From: Magnetococcales bacterium
Lineage (GTDB): Bacteria; Pseudomonadota; Magnetococcia; Magnetococcales; JADFWU01
Direction of reading: 5' to 3'
Assembly (NCBI GenBank): GCA_015234045.1
Contig: JADFWU010000091.1
Span: 1 to 6,795, forward strand
Length of the DNA: 6,795 nt
Numbering within the stretch: the stretch's first letter is position 1; each line of letters starts with the position of its first letter. The translations under genes and the position numbers were made by a program. The notes under the pieces are model-generated. The model made no database searches, was not told the origin of the DNA, and saw only the letters and a program-made list of their open reading frames with translations. This document shows positions 1 to 6,795 of this stretch, piece after piece.

Positions 1-395
1 TCATTGCCGAAGGTGATCTGAAAAAAATGCTCGGAGCACCTGTTCAAACCGGTGACGTGCTGTTCAAAGTCGCGCGACTGGATCAACTCTATGCTGATCT
101 GGCTGTGGATGAGCGCGATATCCATGAAATCAACACCAATCAAACCGGTGAAATCGCTTTTGTAGGCCGCCCGGATCACCGTTTTGCCATCTCGGTCGCA
201 CGGATTCGGCCCATGGCTGAAGCCAGTGATCAGGGCAATCAGTTTCATGTGCGCGCCACCATTGCCGATGATCCCGCCCCGTGGTGGCGGCCTGGCATGA
301 GTGGTGTTGCTAAAATCTCCGCTGGTGATCGGGTCATTCTGTGGATTTTGACCCATCGAACTGTGGATTTTCTGCGTATGGCGCTTTGGTGGTAG
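1..395 (+). CDS. RND/HlyD-type periplasmic adaptor, C-terminal part (5' truncated by window edge)
   Basis: The 3' end of a membrane-fusion (periplasmic adaptor) gene; the reading frame is open from base 3, giving 130 visible residues before TAG at 393-395. The visible start shows the second half of a lipoyl-like barrel-sandwich domain (GAPVQTGDVLFKVARLDQL). A beta-barrel follows with the typical VDERDI turn, then the late RPGMSG motif seen before the last strand of RND adaptors. The protein ends in a Trp/Arg-rich hydrophobic tail (LWILTHRTVDFLRMALWW) that could be an amphipathic or membrane-associated helix. Such adaptors bridge an inner-membrane component to an outer-membrane TolC-like channel. 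The next gene starts 3 nt downstream and carries its own adaptor domain, so this protein probably works with it rather than with an RND pump. The ATG at 27 lies inside the lipoyl domain and is not the true start. Family assignment is confident; the partner assignment is inferred from context. Confidence 0.85.
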   Translation, partial: IAEGDLKKMLGAPVQTGDVLFKVARLDQLYADLAVDERDIHEINTNQTGEIAFVGRPDHRFAISVARIRPMAEASDQGNQFHVRATIADDPAPWWRPGMSGVAKISAGDRVILWILTHRTVDFLRMALWW

Positions 396-398
396 AGC

Positions 399-2546
399 AT
401 GGAAACCGCTTTCAGTGACTCATGGCATCGCGTTGCCCAAACAAAAACCATGCTCCGCCCTTCGGTTACCGCACGTAAACAGCCGTTTGCCGGTGAGATC
501 TGGTATGTGCTGCATGACGCTTTTTCCAATCAATTTTTTCGTCTGAAACCGGAAACCTACCAATTTATCGCCCGGCTCTCACTGGATAAATCGGTTGAAA
601 TGGTTTGGCAGGAACATCTTCAAAAATTCCCGGAACGCACGCCCGGTCAAGATGCTGTTCTGCGTCTGCTCGGCCAGTTGGATGGTGCCAACCTACTACA
701 ACACAACAGCCCATCCGATGCGGCAAAACTGAGTCAGCGCCGTCTGAAGCAAGATAAAAAAAAGCTGAAGGCAAAGTGGACCAATCTGCTCTTCATCCGC
801 GTGCCGGTCTTTGATCCTCATCACCTGCTCAACCGTCTACAAAAACCCATAGAGTGGCTGTTCGGTCCACTGGGTCTCTTTCTTTGGGTTGCAGTGGTCG
901 GCAGTGCGCTTACGGTGGTTGCAGATAATGCAGAAGCACTTTTCAATCAAGCAGAAGGCATGCTGGCACCTGGAAATCTAGCCCTGCTCTATCTCTCCAT
1001 GGCGTTTATCAAAACCCTGCATGAATTTGGCCATGCTGCACTATGCCGTAAATATGGTGGCGAAGTGCATACCATCGGTATTCTGTTTTTGGTATTTACA
1101 CCATTGCCCTATATGGATGCCACCGCAAGTTGGGGTATTCGCAGTCGCACAAAAAGGGCTTTGGTTGGTGCTGGCGGAATGATTGTTGAGCTGTTTATCG
1201 CTGCGCTGGCTACCTTTGTCTGGGCCAATTCCGCACCCGGTATTATTCACGGGCTGGCCTACAATATGATGTTCATTGCCTCTGTATCCACACTGCTTTT
1301 TAACATCAATCCACTGTTACGTTTTGACGGATATTATATTCTTTCTGACCTGCTCTCTCTGCCGAATCTGTATGGTCGTGCTAAAACCTATTTACGCTAT
1401 CAGACTGAACGCCTTCTGTTTGGTCTACGCCATGCCGAAAATCCAGCTCAGACCAACAGAGAGGCAGTATGGTTTACCATCTATGGCATTACCAGCGGGA
1501 TCTATCGTGTGTTTGTGGTGTTGGCAATCACACTGTTTGTTTCCGATCAGTTTCTGATCGTTGGTGCACTATTGGCCGCATCGCTGTTCTTTGCCTGGGG
1601 CATCCGACCACCATTTAAATTCATCCGCTATCTGTTTGTTGATCCGCGTTTGGCACGTAATCGTAACCGCGCCATTCTCACAACTTTGGCGATTGCCATT
1701 CCACTGATCACCGCGCTACTGCTTTGGCCTGCGCCGAATCGATTCCGTGCGCCTGGCGTGGTGGAAGCGCTGAACTATGCTCGAGTGGCGGCGGAAGTGG
1801 CCGGTAAAATCGACCAACGCCATGTACAAACCGGTGATCCTGTTGTGTCCGGTGATCCACTGATCACGCTGACCAATCCTACGCTGGCCTTTCATATTGA
1901 ATCCGCTCAAGCCCAATTGGCGCGCATCCATGCATTGCAGCATAAAGCGAGCTATCTGAGCACTGCCGATCTGCAACCTCTGGAGAAAAAACAACGCACC
2001 TTGGAGCAACTTATTGAGAACCTCCAAAGACAACAGAAAAGTCTGATCGTACGTGCACCACAAACCGGCGTTTGGGTGGCACCGGACTTTACCTCAGTGA
2101 TCGGTTCTTGGATCAATCGTGGTGATGAACTGGGCAGCGTGGTCGATCCTGATACTGTGCGCTTTGTGGCGGTGGTGCCTCAAGAAGAAGCCACTGAGAT
2201 ATTCCAAGCCACCATCCATCAAATTGCCGTACGACTTAATGGCGAAGCACAGACCACTATTCCGGTCAGTACACATCGAATCATTCCTTTTCAACAGGAC
2301 ACACTGCCTTCTGCTGCACTGGGTTGGCTCGGCGGTGGTGATGTGGCAGTCTCTGTTGATGATCGCTCCGGTGTGCGTGCTGCGGAGCCGTTCTTTCGCA
2401 TTGTTGCCCAACTGGACCCACTGAAGGATGATATCCCGTTTCATGGCCGGTCCGGTCAAGTTCGACTTACGCTGACCGATACGCCGCTGATGTATCAGTG
2501 GTGGCGCACGGTCCGGCAGTTTGTCCAACAAAGGTATCGGTTGTGA
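399..2546 (+). CDS. PqqD-like / M50 (site-2 protease-like) membrane protein fused to HlyD-type adaptor domain
   Basis: A 715-residue modular protein. Residues about 18-101 resemble the small winged-helix PqqD-like domain. Residues about 150-445 form a polytopic membrane core with the M50 zinc site: HEFGH at 208-212 and NPLLRFDGYY at 304-313, which supplies the third ligand Asp310. Further hydrophobic segments lie near 152-175, 255-276, 283-303, 358-380, 384-400 and 425-443. Residues about 447-715 form a periplasmic adaptor: first lipoyl half (447-495, with VQTGDPVVSGDPL), a helical hairpin rich in Gln/Lys/Glu (496-548), second lipoyl half (549-590), a beta-barrel and a Trp/Arg-rich tail. The zinc ligands are intact, so peptidase activity is possible, but the fold could equally serve as a membrane scaffold or conduit. 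The ATG lies 3 nt after the upstream stop with a weak GGTGG at 388-392; an internal ATG at 450 (Met18) lacks a ribosome site. Domain calls are firm; the cellular role is inferred. Confidence 0.88.
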   Translation: METAFSDSWHRVAQTKTMLRPSVTARKQPFAGEIWYVLHDAFSNQFFRLKPETYQFIARLSLDKSVEMVWQEHLQKFPERTPGQDAVLRLLGQLDGANLLQHNSPSDAAKLSQRRLKQDKKKLKAKWTNLLFIRVPVFDPHHLLNRLQKPIEWLFGPLGLFLWVAVVGSALTVVADNAEALFNQAEGMLAPGNLALLYLSMAFIKTLHEFGHAALCRKYGGEVHTIGILFLVFTPLPYMDATASWGIRSRTKRALVGAGGMIVELFIAALATFVWANSAPGIIHGLAYNMMFIASVSTLLFNINPLLRFDGYYILSDLLSLPNLYGRAKTYLRYQTERLLFGLRHAENPAQTNREAVWFTIYGITSGIYRVFVVLAITLFVSDQFLIVGALLAASLFFAWGIRPPFKFIRYLFVDPRLARNRNRAILTTLAIAIPLITALLLWPAPNRFRAPGVVEALNYARVAAEVAGKIDQRHVQTGDPVVSGDPLITLTNPTLAFHIESAQAQLARIHALQHKASYLSTADLQPLEKKQRTLEQLIENLQRQQKSLIVRAPQTGVWVAPDFTSVIGSWINRGDELGSVVDPDTVRFVAVVPQEEATEIFQATIHQIAVRLNGEAQTTIPVSTHRIIPFQQDTLPSAALGWLGGGDVAVSVDDRSGVRAAEPFFRIVAQLDPLKDDIPFHGRSGQVRLTLTDTPLMYQWWRTVRQFVQQRYRL
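2530..2545 (+). promoter_or_regulatory. Ribosome binding site and GTG start of the SecA-like gene, overlapping the M50 stop
   Basis: AAAGG at 2530-2534 sits 8 nt before a GTG at 2543-2545. That GTG overlaps the upstream TGA (2544-2546) as GTGA, the usual layout for translational coupling. A more upstream in-frame GTG at 2498 would extend the protein by 15 residues, but it has no Shine-Dalgarno-like sequence before it and would need a 49-nt overlap. This site therefore decides the start. Confidence 0.6.
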
Positions 2547-4516
2547 TACCGCCCAGCCTTCAGGATCGTCTGCTTGATCTGCCTGATCCATCCGCACCGC
2601 CAACCGGATTGGATGCCCTTGCCCATCGTCTTATTGGTATATGGAAAACACAGCCTGGACGTTTCAACGCCCTTCAGCAAAGCACTTTTCAGGTTGAAGA
2701 TGCACTGAAACCAATTCATCACCTTTCTGAGCATCAACTGACAAACAAGCGCCAACATGTTCATGCCCTGATTCGACAAGGTCAGAGTGACAAACCAGAA
2801 GTGCGGCATGAAGCCATTGCGCTTTTATGTGAGACCGCACATCGCACTTTAGGACTTTCGCCCTATCCGGTTCAGATTATGGGTGCATTGGCACTGAGTC
2901 AGGGATTTCTTGTTGAAATGGCCACCGGAGAAGGCAAAAGCCTGACCGCTGCCCTGGCTGCCGCTTTGGCGGGTTGGATTGGTCGGCCCTGCCATCTGTT
3001 GACGGTCAACGACTATCTGGCCGAACGGGATGCTGACTACTTTTCGCCTTTTTATCAGGCATGTGGACTGCGTAGCGGATCGGTTGGCGGTGAACATCAA
3101 CCCAACCAACGCGGTGAACGTTATCAACGAGAAATCGTCTATACCACGGCAAAAGAGTTGCTTGGTGACTTTCTGCGCGATCGAATTGCTTTAGGGCGTG
3201 TTTCTCAACCTGAACAACTCCGATTGCGGCGGATCATCGGTGCAGATCATCAAAGCCGATCAACTGTATTACGCGGTCTGCACACCGCGATTGTGGATGA
3301 AGCGGACAGCCTGTTGATTGATGAAGCGGTCACTCCGCTGATTATCGCCCAACCGGCTGAAAATGCGCTTCTAAAAGAAACAATTATCACAGCGGTTGAG
3401 ATGACCGAGCAGTTTGAACCCGGCGTTCATTTCCGTATCAATACCCGCTTTAGAGATCTGCGTTTAACTGGCCCTGGCGAACAACTACTAAATACGCTGA
3501 CTTCAGAAAAAAAAGGGGTTTGGCAAAATAGCGCCTGGCGTGGGCATATTATCCGCACCGCTTTGATGGCGCGAACTTTTTTCAAAAATGGTGATCACTA
3601 TGTCATTGACGAAGGCAAAGTAGTTTTGGTGGATGAGTTCACTGGACGACAGACACCAAACCGCAACTTAGGCACCGGTCTACATCAAGCGGTTGAGGCG
3701 TTGGAAGGTGTAGAGATTACCGACCCAACAGAGACCATTGCGCGGTTGAGTTTTCAGAAGTTTTTTCGACTGTTCCGCCGACTCTCCGGCCTGACCGGAA
3801 CCGCCAGTGAAGCAGTGAGTGAGTTTTGGCGCATCTACGAGATGCCGATTTCGGTTATTCCAGCCCATCGACCCGTCCAAAGGCGCATCAAACCGGCTCG
3901 TGTGGTTGCCGATGCTGATAAAAAATGGCAACTCACCGCACAACTTGCCGCAAAAAAACATCAAACAGGACAGCCGATTTTGATCGGTACGCGCACGGTT
4001 ACTGACAGCCAAAAACTGGCCCAAGCACTGAAACAAAAAGGCCTCAGTTTCGAACTACTCAACGCCATCAACCACAAAGAAGAGGCCGAAATCATCAGCA
4101 AAGCTGGCCAACATGGCAAAATCACCATCGCCACCAACATGGCCGGACGCGGCACGGATATTAAATTAGGTCCAGGTATCGCGGACCTCGGTGGACTGCG
4201 CGTCATCGGTACCGAAATGCACGAATCAGGACGCGTTGACCGCCAACTATTCGGTCGTTGCTCCCGTCAAGGCGATCCCGGTGTTGTGCAACTGGTACTC
4301 AGTATGGATGATGTACTTATACAACGATTTCTGCATCCTTTGATGAAACAAGCGCTTTCTCTGATTGTAAAAGCTGGTATTCCAGGTTCTCGACACATGA
4401 CGCTACTGGCCTTTCGGCTGGCACAGAAACAGGCCGAACGCATGGCCTTTCAACGCCGCGCACAGGTGCTTAAAGCGGACAAACAGCTTGAAGAATCGCT
4501 TTCGTTTGGTCGGTAG
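2543..4516 (+). CDS. SecA-like preprotein translocase ATPase, short accessory form
   Basis: A 657-residue (from GTG 2543) DEAD-type motor related to SecA, expected to hydrolyse ATP in the cytoplasm at the inner membrane. Motifs in order: VQIMG Q-motif region near 109; Walker A TGEGKS at 128-133; TVNDYLAERD near 154-163; DEAD at 252-255 followed by SLLIDEA; a cross-linking-like segment about 273-350; VDEFTGR at 363-369; GLTGTA at 416-421; and, in the second nucleotide-binding domain, ATNMAGRGTDIKLG at 530-543 and QLFGRCSRQGDPG at 568-580. Only about 60 residues follow, so most of the helical wing/scaffold and the zinc-binding C-tail of housekeeping SecA (usually 800-900 residues) are absent. 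The usual IDEARTP motif reads IDEAVTP. It overlaps the M50/adaptor stop by 4 nt, pointing to co-translation and a shared job. It is not the housekeeping secA; a dedicated export motor is the best inference. Confidence 0.85.
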   Translation: MIPPSLQDRLLDLPDPSAPPTGLDALAHRLIGIWKTQPGRFNALQQSTFQVEDALKPIHHLSEHQLTNKRQHVHALIRQGQSDKPEVRHEAIALLCETAHRTLGLSPYPVQIMGALALSQGFLVEMATGEGKSLTAALAAALAGWIGRPCHLLTVNDYLAERDADYFSPFYQACGLRSGSVGGEHQPNQRGERYQREIVYTTAKELLGDFLRDRIALGRVSQPEQLRLRRIIGADHQSRSTVLRGLHTAIVDEADSLLIDEAVTPLIIAQPAENALLKETIITAVEMTEQFEPGVHFRINTRFRDLRLTGPGEQLLNTLTSEKKGVWQNSAWRGHIIRTALMARTFFKNGDHYVIDEGKVVLVDEFTGRQTPNRNLGTGLHQAVEALEGVEITDPTETIARLSFQKFFRLFRRLSGLTGTASEAVSEFWRIYEMPISVIPAHRPVQRRIKPARVVADADKKWQLTAQLAAKKHQTGQPILIGTRTVTDSQKLAQALKQKGLSFELLNAINHKEEAEIISKAGQHGKITIATNMAGRGTDIKLGPGIADLGGLRVIGTEMHESGRVDRQLFGRCSRQGDPGVVQLVLSMDDVLIQRFLHPLMKQALSLIVKAGIPGSRHMTLLAFRLAQKQAERMAFQRRAQVLKADKQLEESLSFGR

Positions 4517-4611: not shown

Positions 4612-6795
4612 TCATAGTTTTGTAGTCATTATGGACAACTCCTCCAGCCGGTAGTCGTCCACCATCTGTTTTAAGACATTGGCGAGATCCGGAGATTGTT
4701 CTCCGATTCTCGAGACCACCGAGGCAATCACATCCGTATCCAACTCGACCACGGCATGACGGAGTGCATCCTGCAACTCTGGAGAAATGGAGCTAAGTGA
4801 CGCAAGCAACCCATCCCTGTCCAGCATTACTTTCTCTTTAGAGTCCGCTTCATCCATCGGGGTTTCGTCTTCATAGCGAAAGCGAAGTTTCAAATAGTTG
4901 GCCATGCAGTCGAATAGTTCATACTCTTGAAATGGTTTACCCACACAATCATCGCATCCCGCTGCGATGATCTCTTTACGGTCTTCCTCAAAAACGTTGG
5001 CTGTCAGCGCTACTATAGAAGTCTCACGCCCATGCGGATGGTTTCGGATGCGCCGCGTGGCTTCATATCCGTTCATGACCGGCATACGCATATCCATCCA
5101 GATCAAGTTGGGTCGCCACTCTTTGAACTGCTCCAATGCTTCCTGCCCGTTGACAGCCTCACGCACGTCAAACCCAACCTCAACAAGCAACTTTCTCAGC
5201 AACAGGCGACTCTCCTGGACATCCTCAACGATCAAAATCCGGGGGACCGGTTGTCCTGGCTCAAGGCCTACCACGCGTCGCTGTCTTTTTTGTTCTGTAA
5301 AGTCAGATGCAGCCACATAAGTGACGGGAATATGAAAGGAAAACAGTGATCCCTGGCCCAAGTGGCTTGAAACTTCCAAATCGCCGCCCATTAATTGGAT
5401 ATAATGACGCGTAATGGAGAGTCCCAAACCCGTGCCTTTCATGCTGCCCGAACTATTGACTACCTGGATGAAAGGAGAAAACACCTCTTTTAGGTTGTGT
5501 TCGGAAATACCAACCCCGGTGTCTTCCACCTCGCACAACAGATCAGGATGGTCTTTGGTAGTCATTCCAGTCTCTGTTTCCTTGATTCGAACACGGAGGG
5601 AAACCGTGCCCTGTTCGGTAAACTTGATGGCATTGCCAATCAGGTTGATAAGTGCCTGGCGAAGTTTACCCGAGTCCGTCTGGACATGAGTTGGCAGGTT
5701 GTGAGCAAAATCCACGGTGAACTGTAGTTCTTTGTCCTCAGCCCGCACGCGCATCATCTCCGCAACATCTTGAAGTGTCCGTAGCAGATCGATTTTCTCC
5801 TGGTTCAGAACGATTTTTCCAGCCTCAATCTTGGACATTTCCAGCACATCGTTGATCAACTCAAGCAGGTGTTCACCACTTCGACCAATGATTCCCAGGT
5901 TCTCCTGATGCTCAACAGACAAGTTCCGATCGCGCACCATCAATTGGGCAAAGCCGAGGATGACGTGTAAGGGCGTACGCAATTCATGACTCATGTTGGC
6001 CAGAAAGTCACTTTTGGCCTGGTTGGCTGCTTCGGCAATCTCCTTGGCTGCTTCTGCGGCCTCTTTGGCCTCCGACATCTGTGCTTCAGCGGCTTTCCGC
6101 TGCCGCACTTCCCGCTTCAGAGACCAGGACCAGAGAAGGGCCACAGCCAGGATGACCAGAAATCCACCACCGATGATGGTTGCATATTTGTAGATAACCT
6201 CCAGGGAGACACCACGCGGATCAACAACGCCGAACCATTTATCATAAAGTTCATCATATTTTCCGGTGGCCTTGACGATACTCAAACCTTGGTTCAAGTG
6301 GGCCAACAGCTCCGTATTTCCCTCATGCACTGCAAAGCCGTATCCACGACCATAAGCGGCAATTTGAGGACCGGAAATCTCAATGTTTGTCAGGCCCAGT
6401 TCATTGGCGGTCAAAAGCCCTACCAGCCTTGGCACCAGAGCAAGATCCCCTTCACCTGCGGAAAGCCGCCGTAGCGCCTCTGGAACTGTTTTAACCAGAA
6501 TAAGGCTTTCAGAAACCTTGTATTTGGTCAGGTAGTCATGGGTTCCGTCAGACTGCATGACAATGATATTGCGGCTTCGCAAACCTTCCTCCGACTCAAT
6601 GCCATCGTCACCCTTTCGGATAAAGGCGGCACCGTAGGAAACTGTATGCGGAGTTGTAAAGTCGAACACCTTTTCCCGCGCAACCGAATAGGATACCAGA
6701 GGCAAAGCGTCGATTTCCCCACGCTCCAGCGCAGTCCGCACCTCATTCCATGGTCCAACCCGGAAACGAACCTGAAGCCCCATCACCTGAGCCAC
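4612..6795 (-). CDS. Hybrid sensor histidine kinase with SBP_bac_3 sensor and receiver domain (N-terminus beyond window edge)
   Basis: 727 residues are visible, counted from the right edge; signal peptide and start lie outside. Residues 1-193 are a periplasmic solute-binding (SBP_bac_3) sensor: RGEIDALPLVSYSVAREKVFDFT matches the family's GEID...S..R....DFT pattern. One membrane helix lies about 204-225, then an Ala/Glu-rich helical linker (226-262). HisKA carries FLANMSHELRTP with His270. HATPase_c has the N box around Asn388, DTGVGIS at 425-431 and GTGLGLS at 454-460. The receiver domain (about 519-640) has acidic Glu524/Asp525, phosphoacceptor Asp568 (MDMRMP), Thr598 and Lys620. The last ~70 residues are helical without an HxxKG-like Hpt motif. 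All catalytic residues are present, so a BvgS/EvgS-like relay without its own Hpt is likely: ligand sensing, autophosphorylation of His270, transfer to Asp568, then to a separate partner. The ligand and output are unknown, and a link to the convergent operon is not shown. Confidence 0.92.
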   Translation of the reverse strand: MAQVMGLQVRFRVGPWNEVRTALERGEIDALPLVSYSVAREKVFDFTTPHTVSYGAAFIRKGDDGIESEEGLRSRNIIVMQSDGTHDYLTKYKVSESLILVKTVPEALRRLSAGEGDLALVPRLVGLLTANELGLTNIEISGPQIAAYGRGYGFAVHEGNTELLAHLNQGLSIVKATGKYDELYDKWFGVVDPRGVSLEVIYKYATIIGGGFLVILAVALLWSWSLKREVRQRKAAEAQMSEAKEAAEAAKEIAEAANQAKSDFLANMSHELRTPLHVILGFAQLMVRDRNLSVEHQENLGIIGRSGEHLLELINDVLEMSKIEAGKIVLNQEKIDLLRTLQDVAEMMRVRAEDKELQFTVDFAHNLPTHVQTDSGKLRQALINLIGNAIKFTEQGTVSLRVRIKETETGMTTKDHPDLLCEVEDTGVGISEHNLKEVFSPFIQVVNSSGSMKGTGLGLSITRHYIQLMGGDLEVSSHLGQGSLFSFHIPVTYVAASDFTEQKRQRRVVGLEPGQPVPRILIVEDVQESRLLLRKLLVEVGFDVREAVNGQEALEQFKEWRPNLIWMDMRMPVMNGYEATRRIRNHPHGRETSIVALTANVFEEDRKEIIAAGCDDCVGKPFQEYELFDCMANYLKLRFRYEDETPMDEADSKEKVMLDRDGLLASLSSISPELQDALRHAVVELDTDVIASVVSRIGEQSPDLANVLKQMVDDYRLEELSIMTTKL

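Follow-up and report, generated by a model that had tools for sequence, protein, structure and literature searches.

We consider it likely, from the sequence comparisons described below, that three adjacent genes of a Magnetococcales bacterium supply the inner-membrane component and the motor of a dedicated exporter, one system for one substrate: the giant proteins which begin with a LEPR-XLL leader. The genes lie on a stretch of 6,795 nt, which we call the window. It is one whole contig and ends inside the operon, the rest of which is absent from the assembly; the substrate, the small adaptor and the outer-membrane partner of this copy were for that reason not recovered. All three genes are on the forward strand: the end of a HlyD-type adaptor, a membrane protein which joins PqqD, M50 and HlyD parts, and a truncated SecA-like protein (SecAL). 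The substrate family, its leader and the limits on the role of SecAL as a motor are new with respect to earlier work.

The periplasmic adaptor of the HlyD family (HlyDL) is represented by its C-terminal 130 aa (3..395, + strand; HlyD_3 5.7e-9), its 5' part lying past the contig start. The fragment shares 55% identity with the C-terminal end of a relative of 643 aa. At full length such relatives have about 620–640 aa, with GAF and HlyD regions; one of them (L040) shows a GAF match (4.5e-7) plus HlyD. The missing half was searched for on the other contigs of the same genome and was not found. After a gap of 3 nt (396-398) comes the PqqD-like/M50 metalloprotease/HlyD-adaptor fusion, a membrane protein of 715 aa (399..2546, + strand, ATG at 399; HlyD_3 5e-11, HlyD_D23 2e-9). 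Its stop overlaps by 4 nt, GTGA (2543-2546), the GTG start of SecAL, which has 657 aa (2543..4516, + strand; SecA_DEAD 1e-82, SecA cross-linking domain 7e-19). The SecAL frame has an alternative GTG upstream, at 2498; the start at 2543 is favoured by the homologues and by the overlap. Both gap and overlap are read straight off the sequence and confirm the tight coupling of adaptor, M50-adaptor and SecA-type genes on which the initial annotation was built. The remainder of the window (4612-6795, minus strand) codes for a hybrid histidine kinase, whose domains are a periplasmic solute-binding sensor, HisKA, HATPase and a receiver; it is convergent and apparently unrelated to the export unit.

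The central protein has three parts. Residues 1–104 (399..710, + strand) are a PqqD-like region of the RiPP recognition element type, modelled as strands followed by three helices. The PqqD part named in the initial annotation is borne out by its homologues, ten of 20 matching PF05402 (best 3.3e-7), but the match is not significant in the window copy. The M50 core has the zinc motif HEFGH at residues 208–212 (1020..1034, + strand) and a third ligand, D310, at 1326-1328: the hallmarks of M50 intramembrane zinc proteases are present, HExxH and a downstream Asp in an NPxxxxxD context. In the profile search M50 is found at 8e-5, under Pfam's cut-off, and the model for the daptide HExxH membrane metalloprotease (NF041824) gives 1.8e-42 and 145.8 bits, short of its cut-off of 300. 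Six residues (H208, E209, H212, N302, P305 and D310) are invariant in 126 of 126 M50 homologues, including those of a sister clade which has no SecAL. Among them are the catalytic E209 and the three zinc ligands, H208, H212 and D310, so that the fusion would appear to be proteolytically active rather than a pore alone. This M50-like protein has transmembrane helices and adjoins SecAL. Its C-terminal part, residues 443–705 (1725..2513, + strand), is a periplasmic adaptor domain of the MacA/MexA/AcrA kind with a short helical hairpin (MacA, Z 15.0, rmsd 5.7 over 218 residues). The AlphaFold model of the whole fusion has a mean pLDDT of 86.5; in the fold search carried out with it the adaptor domain dominated the matches, which therefore did not yield a solved structure related to the PqqD or M50 part.

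SecAL aligns to Bacillus subtilis SecA from about residue 14 to about 610-613, where the scaffold helix begins. It therefore has neither wing nor two-helix finger, and the window copy has no SecA_SW match. The ATPase motifs are in place: Walker A (GEGKS, 2927..2941, + strand), with G129, G131 and K132 invariant in 50 intact copies, and, from a motif survey of SecAL copies, Walker B (DEAD, 3296..3307, + strand) and motif VI (GRCSRQGD, 4253..4276, + strand). All four motifs (Walker A, Walker B, V and VI) are preserved in 106 of the 116 copies surveyed; with the inclusion of two copies which depart from the strict pattern by a single residue the number is 108. A SecAL profile was applied to 398 genomes: SecAL reaches 634–961 bits, with frames mostly of 660–750 aa, and ordinary SecA at most 548 bits, with frames mostly of 880–1000 aa. 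Three candidates were scored per genome, so extra SecAL copies may be missed.

The AlphaFold model of SecAL (mean pLDDT 89.4) superposes with the lowest rmsd on structures of SecA bound to SecY and a substrate, namely 6itc (3.6 A over 592 residues) and 5eul (3.5 A over 586). Such a resemblance, in a protein which retains the ATPase motifs, the PPXD and the clamp, is what would be expected if SecAL worked with SecYEG in the way of SecA2 and brought the giants to the periplasm, leaving the M50 protein to cleave them and the adaptors and TolC to carry out a second step. Mycobacterial SecA2 has no helical wing, yet it operates with the Sec channel. Housekeeping SecA is also still present where active SecAL is missing, as would suit this route. 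However, SecAL has no two-helix finger, the part which touches the chain in the SecY pore, and it stays under the cut-off of the curated NCBIfam SecA2 models (466/1085, 441/930, 389/725 and 331/1100 bits, score against cut-off). The giants, moreover, have a distinctive leader and, in the N-termini analysed, no conserved hydrophobic signal-peptide core. We regard an accessory Sec route as rather unlikely and prefer a dedicated exporter.

The three-gene unit is conserved across several phyla. We have 133 homologous M50 loci; in 115 of the 125 which have room downstream SecAL is found directly behind M50, and four of the remaining ten are effectively adjacent to it, with overlong ORF calls or a gap of 929 bp. 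A grouping with this frequency is far beyond chance; the loci were chosen for their resemblance to the M50 or SecAL proteins, so that the numbers hold for this clade and not for M50 proteins at large. The order adaptor-M50-SecAL is found in 80 named loci of Verrucomicrobiota, Fibrobacterota, Planctomycetota (Phycisphaerae), Desulfobacterota, Nitrospirota and Pseudomonadota and in about 50 further loci; it is also present in Elusimicrobia, Spirochaetales and several proteobacterial classes. An apparent fusion of the M50 and SecAL genes in one genome (G172, locus L222) was rejected: it corresponds to two separate overlong ORFs. In four Fibrobacter loci (L118, L126, L130 and L143) M50-SecAL is present and an adaptor gene beside the module was not detected in any. 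In L118, L130 and L143 the M50 and SecAL genes come right behind a frame of more than 1100 to 3300 aa.

The neighbourhood of the module is also regular. Of the loci, 55 are flanked by 7 kb on either side; in these we find SecAL in 53, HlyDL in 50, a small HlyD (sHlyD) in 48, an outer-membrane protein (OEP or ShlB) in 32 and DUF3467 in 18. Genes for outer-membrane proteins of the TolC or TpsB type are frequent in the flanks, and so is one for a second small adaptor; a look at the flanks for a TolC-family gene was among the checks suggested in the initial annotation. That annotation had also remarked on the absence of an ABC or RND pump, which is upheld: no such family recurs among those common to two or more of 84 operon neighbours, the window has no ABC transporter, and a motif search of the neighbourhood loci gave only three ABC-like ORFs. 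The small DUF3467 gene lies just 5' of the large adaptor in many loci (L033-L038, about 11700-12140) and its product is possibly a chaperone or regulator. Genes of the SapC family (PF07277) are found in 12 of the 84 operon neighbours, for instance at 15464-16354 of L047, and one adjoins the giant gene of Alisedimentitalea. Some Magnetococcales loci (L061, 13987-20000; L063, L065, L069-L074 and L226) have after the small adaptor a ShlB (TpsB) gene and a gene of the filamentous-haemagglutinin type, which replace TolC; at loci of this type the leaders read LSGE, as in L243, L244 and L252. They are possibly hybrids with two-partner secretion.

An efflux or RiPP-type exporter of small products, with the giants as bystanders, would agree with an M50 core like that of the daptide and epipeptide maturation proteases and with adaptors like those of RND pumps. 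But neither a RiPP precursor nor a modifying enzyme is conserved beside the module among the 84 operon neighbours, nor is an ABC or RND gene; leader-tagged giants are. We consider such an exporter very improbable.

The probable substrates are the giants themselves. In complete plasmids giant genes of 12 to 38 kb adjoin the module: plasmids of Rhodobacterales, Methylosinus and Thalassospira have the order giant - DUF3467 - HlyDL - M50 (- SecAL) - sHlyD - TolC, with variations, Thalassospira being without SecAL. Behind a K/R-rich N-terminus the giants have a leader with the consensus [LFV]ExLE[PDE]R[IVL]LLSA[DE]P, which is the LEPR-XLL domain of NCBIfam (NF012209). In the module loci it is found in 52 of 206 long ORFs, a denominator which includes spurious long antisense ORFs, and in 6 of 5837 other ORFs. 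The frames which bear it have up to 15,434 aa where SecAL adjoins; elsewhere in such genomes the longest has 19,427 aa. The link with very large proteins, suggested in the initial annotation, is real, and the common leader gives it a sharper form. Annotation may hide the leader: in Alisedimentitalea (L265, NZ_CP123586.1:182000-183600) the giant gene is annotated from a start 3' of it, and the frame extends further upstream and contains VEQLEPRLLLAAD.

The type of leader follows the clade of the M50 protein and the adaptor, not SecAL. LDAA or FDAA instead of LLSA is seen only in the sister systems without SecAL. The genome to which the window belongs has, in the NF012209 search, only giants of FDAA/FDGA type (contigs C25, C83 and C117) and one short ORF; leaders of this type belong to its SecAL-less systems. 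One of these systems is complete (L078, G000:C117:36501-56500, at 8721-18315 of the locus): it has genes for an outer-membrane lipoprotein-like protein, a small HlyD, a HlyD, an M50 fusion of 701 aa and a DUF4347 protein of 1198 aa whose leader is LEPRLMFDGA. Three more M50 fusions of the SecAL-less sister clade are found in the same genome, on contigs C89, C37 and C106.

The association is also apparent at the level of whole genomes. In 350 genomes of the same phylum, outside the order, the M50 fusion and the leader are found together in 27, the fusion alone in 17, the leader alone in 6 and neither in 300 (Fisher 3e-23); the corresponding numbers for SecAL and the leader are 11, 0, 22 and 317 (Fisher 9e-13), although both p-values overstate the case because related genomes are not independent. 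The 44 M50-positive genomes are spread over many families. All 11 genomes with SecAL have the leader, against 22 of the 339 without it; 16 of these 22 have the M50 fusion, about ten with a leader ORF on the same contig. The 17 genomes with the fusion alone have no leader above the cut-off, which speaks against the exporter that we favour, as do the Fibrobacter loci without an adaptor and the loci where SecAL is absent or motif-dead. In five of the six genomes with the leader alone its frames measure 64 to 311 aa, and the matches could be due to chance. Among non-truncated, hand-picked ORFs the length of the leader-bearing frame differs: the median is 9835 aa in systems with SecAL and 3479 aa in the others (p = 3e-4).

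The initial annotation suggested that the SecA-like ATPase could be the motor of the machine. As a required motor it does not hold: besides the missing two-helix finger, three module loci have no SecAL gene and five have a SecAL without its motifs. In Marinobacter sp. F4216 and in a Thiodiazotropha genome, both checked genome-wide, the module and the leader are present and SecAL is nowhere in the genome; in a Thalassospira marina plasmid, checked plasmid-wide, the module is present without SecAL. The five motif-dead genes, of 495-650 aa, are without Walker A, Walker B, motif V and motif VI and retain their position in the operon (L042, 6974-8890; L055, 3949-5811; L056, 10741-12690; L057, 3418-4902, which ends at the contig end; L163, from 12333 onward). 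No intact SecAL copy was found in genomes G018 and G004. We take the motif-dead copies as candidate pseudo-ATPases; their pairwise identity is only about 23%, so that decay and a new function are indistinguishable. In the M50 tree the SecAL-less and motif-dead cases are nested in SecAL-bearing clades, at about four separate positions. We have rejected SecAL as a universal component. A role as reader of the leader is disfavoured: SecAL-less loci of the close M50 clade (L169 and L180, also L255 in genome G331) retain a leader of the LLSA type.

These losses, where M50, adaptors and leader persist, and the longer substrates which go with SecAL could mean that it is a chaperone or unfoldase which keeps the giant export-competent, the energy for transport coming from elsewhere. 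Against this, the ATPase motifs are intact in the great majority of the SecAL copies surveyed and the gene is locked to M50 in order and spacing; a role of this kind is in our opinion unlikely. The simplest reading of the comparisons is that SecAL is a frequent energising subunit, added for or needed by the largest substrates. Since SecAL is lost or motif-dead in some systems while the zinc site of M50 is invariant, the exporter and its substrate are probably defined by the M50–adaptor core, which would read and cleave the leader.

The dedicated exporter which we favour could work as follows. The giant would be made with its K/R-rich N-terminus followed by the leader, a sequence pattern which the PqqD-like domain of the fusion may recognise at the membrane; we infer this from the RiPP recognition elements and from the leader type, which tracks the M50 clade. 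Where present, SecAL, a SecA core with ATPase and clamp and without wing or two-helix finger, would bind the chain and drive or ratchet it; systems without active SecAL would require another source of energy, perhaps the housekeeping SecA. The inner-membrane pore could be the M50 protein itself or SecYEG. The M50 core, as its invariant zinc site suggests, would cut the leader at the LLSA|D stretch or close to it, and the substrate would thus be committed or released. The adaptor domain of the fusion, HlyDL and the small HlyD, components given by synteny, may assemble into a periplasmic tube which leads to the TolC-type outer-membrane protein or, in some Magnetococcales, ends at a TpsB-type one.

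We suggest tentatively, as one possibility, that these systems are a separate class of secretion in diderms: a protease-adaptor membrane protein would read and cleave the LEPR-XLL leader and move chains of several thousand residues, and some of more than 10,000, directly through a duct of the TolC kind. For the largest substrates a truncated SecA would stand in for the ABC motor, and some lineages would have lost it or retained it as a pseudo-ATPase. For the secondary SecA_DEAD locus no function has been known since 2015, nor is it clear by what route bacteria secrete their largest proteins, of 5,000 to 15,000 residues and more, when a type I ABC exporter is not used. Pairing the two supplies a substrate family, a signal of 15 residues to mutate and the active sites of a protease and a motor. 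If the pairing is right, many environmental phyla have an added route of secretion, and the LEPR-XLL family has its exporter. Through the conserved N-terminal tag the function of the export module becomes testable for the first time, and culturable hosts exist, for example Thioclava pacifica, Marinobacterium mangrovicola and Methylobacterium.

The hypothesis of a SecA motor and an M50 pore is a rediscovery, since Kamneva, Poudel and Ward (2015, PLoS One 10:e0129066, PMC4452313) proposed for the same locus SecA_DEAD as ATPase and M50 as pore. Their secondary SecA_DEAD locus contains SecA_DEAD without wing-scaffold, M50, a GAF-HlyD adaptor, a further HlyD/biotin-lipoyl protein, sometimes an OEP, and no ABC; they named no substrate and called its broader role completely unknown (PMC4452313). 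The window has both the SecA_DEAD protein without SecA_SW and the adjoining M50 protein. To this we add the giant LEPR-XLL substrates with their leader consensus, the PqqD-like domain, the invariant zinc site, the SecAL-less and ATPase-dead variants, the sister systems with DUF4347 giants and a wider range of phyla. Our literature search, which did not extend to subscription papers and preprints, found neither a follow-up of that work nor a paper tying LEPR-XLL or DUF4347 to a secretion system.

Type I secretion (HlyBD-TolC, with large adhesins of the RTX and LapA type) shares with the module a HlyD-like adaptor, a TolC-type channel and a devotion to large repeat proteins. It differs by its ABC transporter, where the module has an M50 membrane protein and SecAL, and by the place of its signal, which is C-terminal, while the leader of the giants, whose N-termini were analysed here, is N-terminal. 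Accessory SecA2 of Gram-positive and mycobacterial species is likewise a second, shortened SecA for special substrates, whereas SecAL is coupled to M50, HlyD and TolC in diderms and ends where the scaffold domain begins. The daptide metalloprotease of NF041824 also has an M50-type core and an N-terminal recognition region, but the M50 protein of the module has a periplasmic adaptor in the same chain and is associated with giants. Finally, the LEPR-XLL domain of NF012209 and the DUF4347 giants share with the module the leader with which the substrates begin; in the literature searched no exporter had been assigned to this family, for which one is now proposed.
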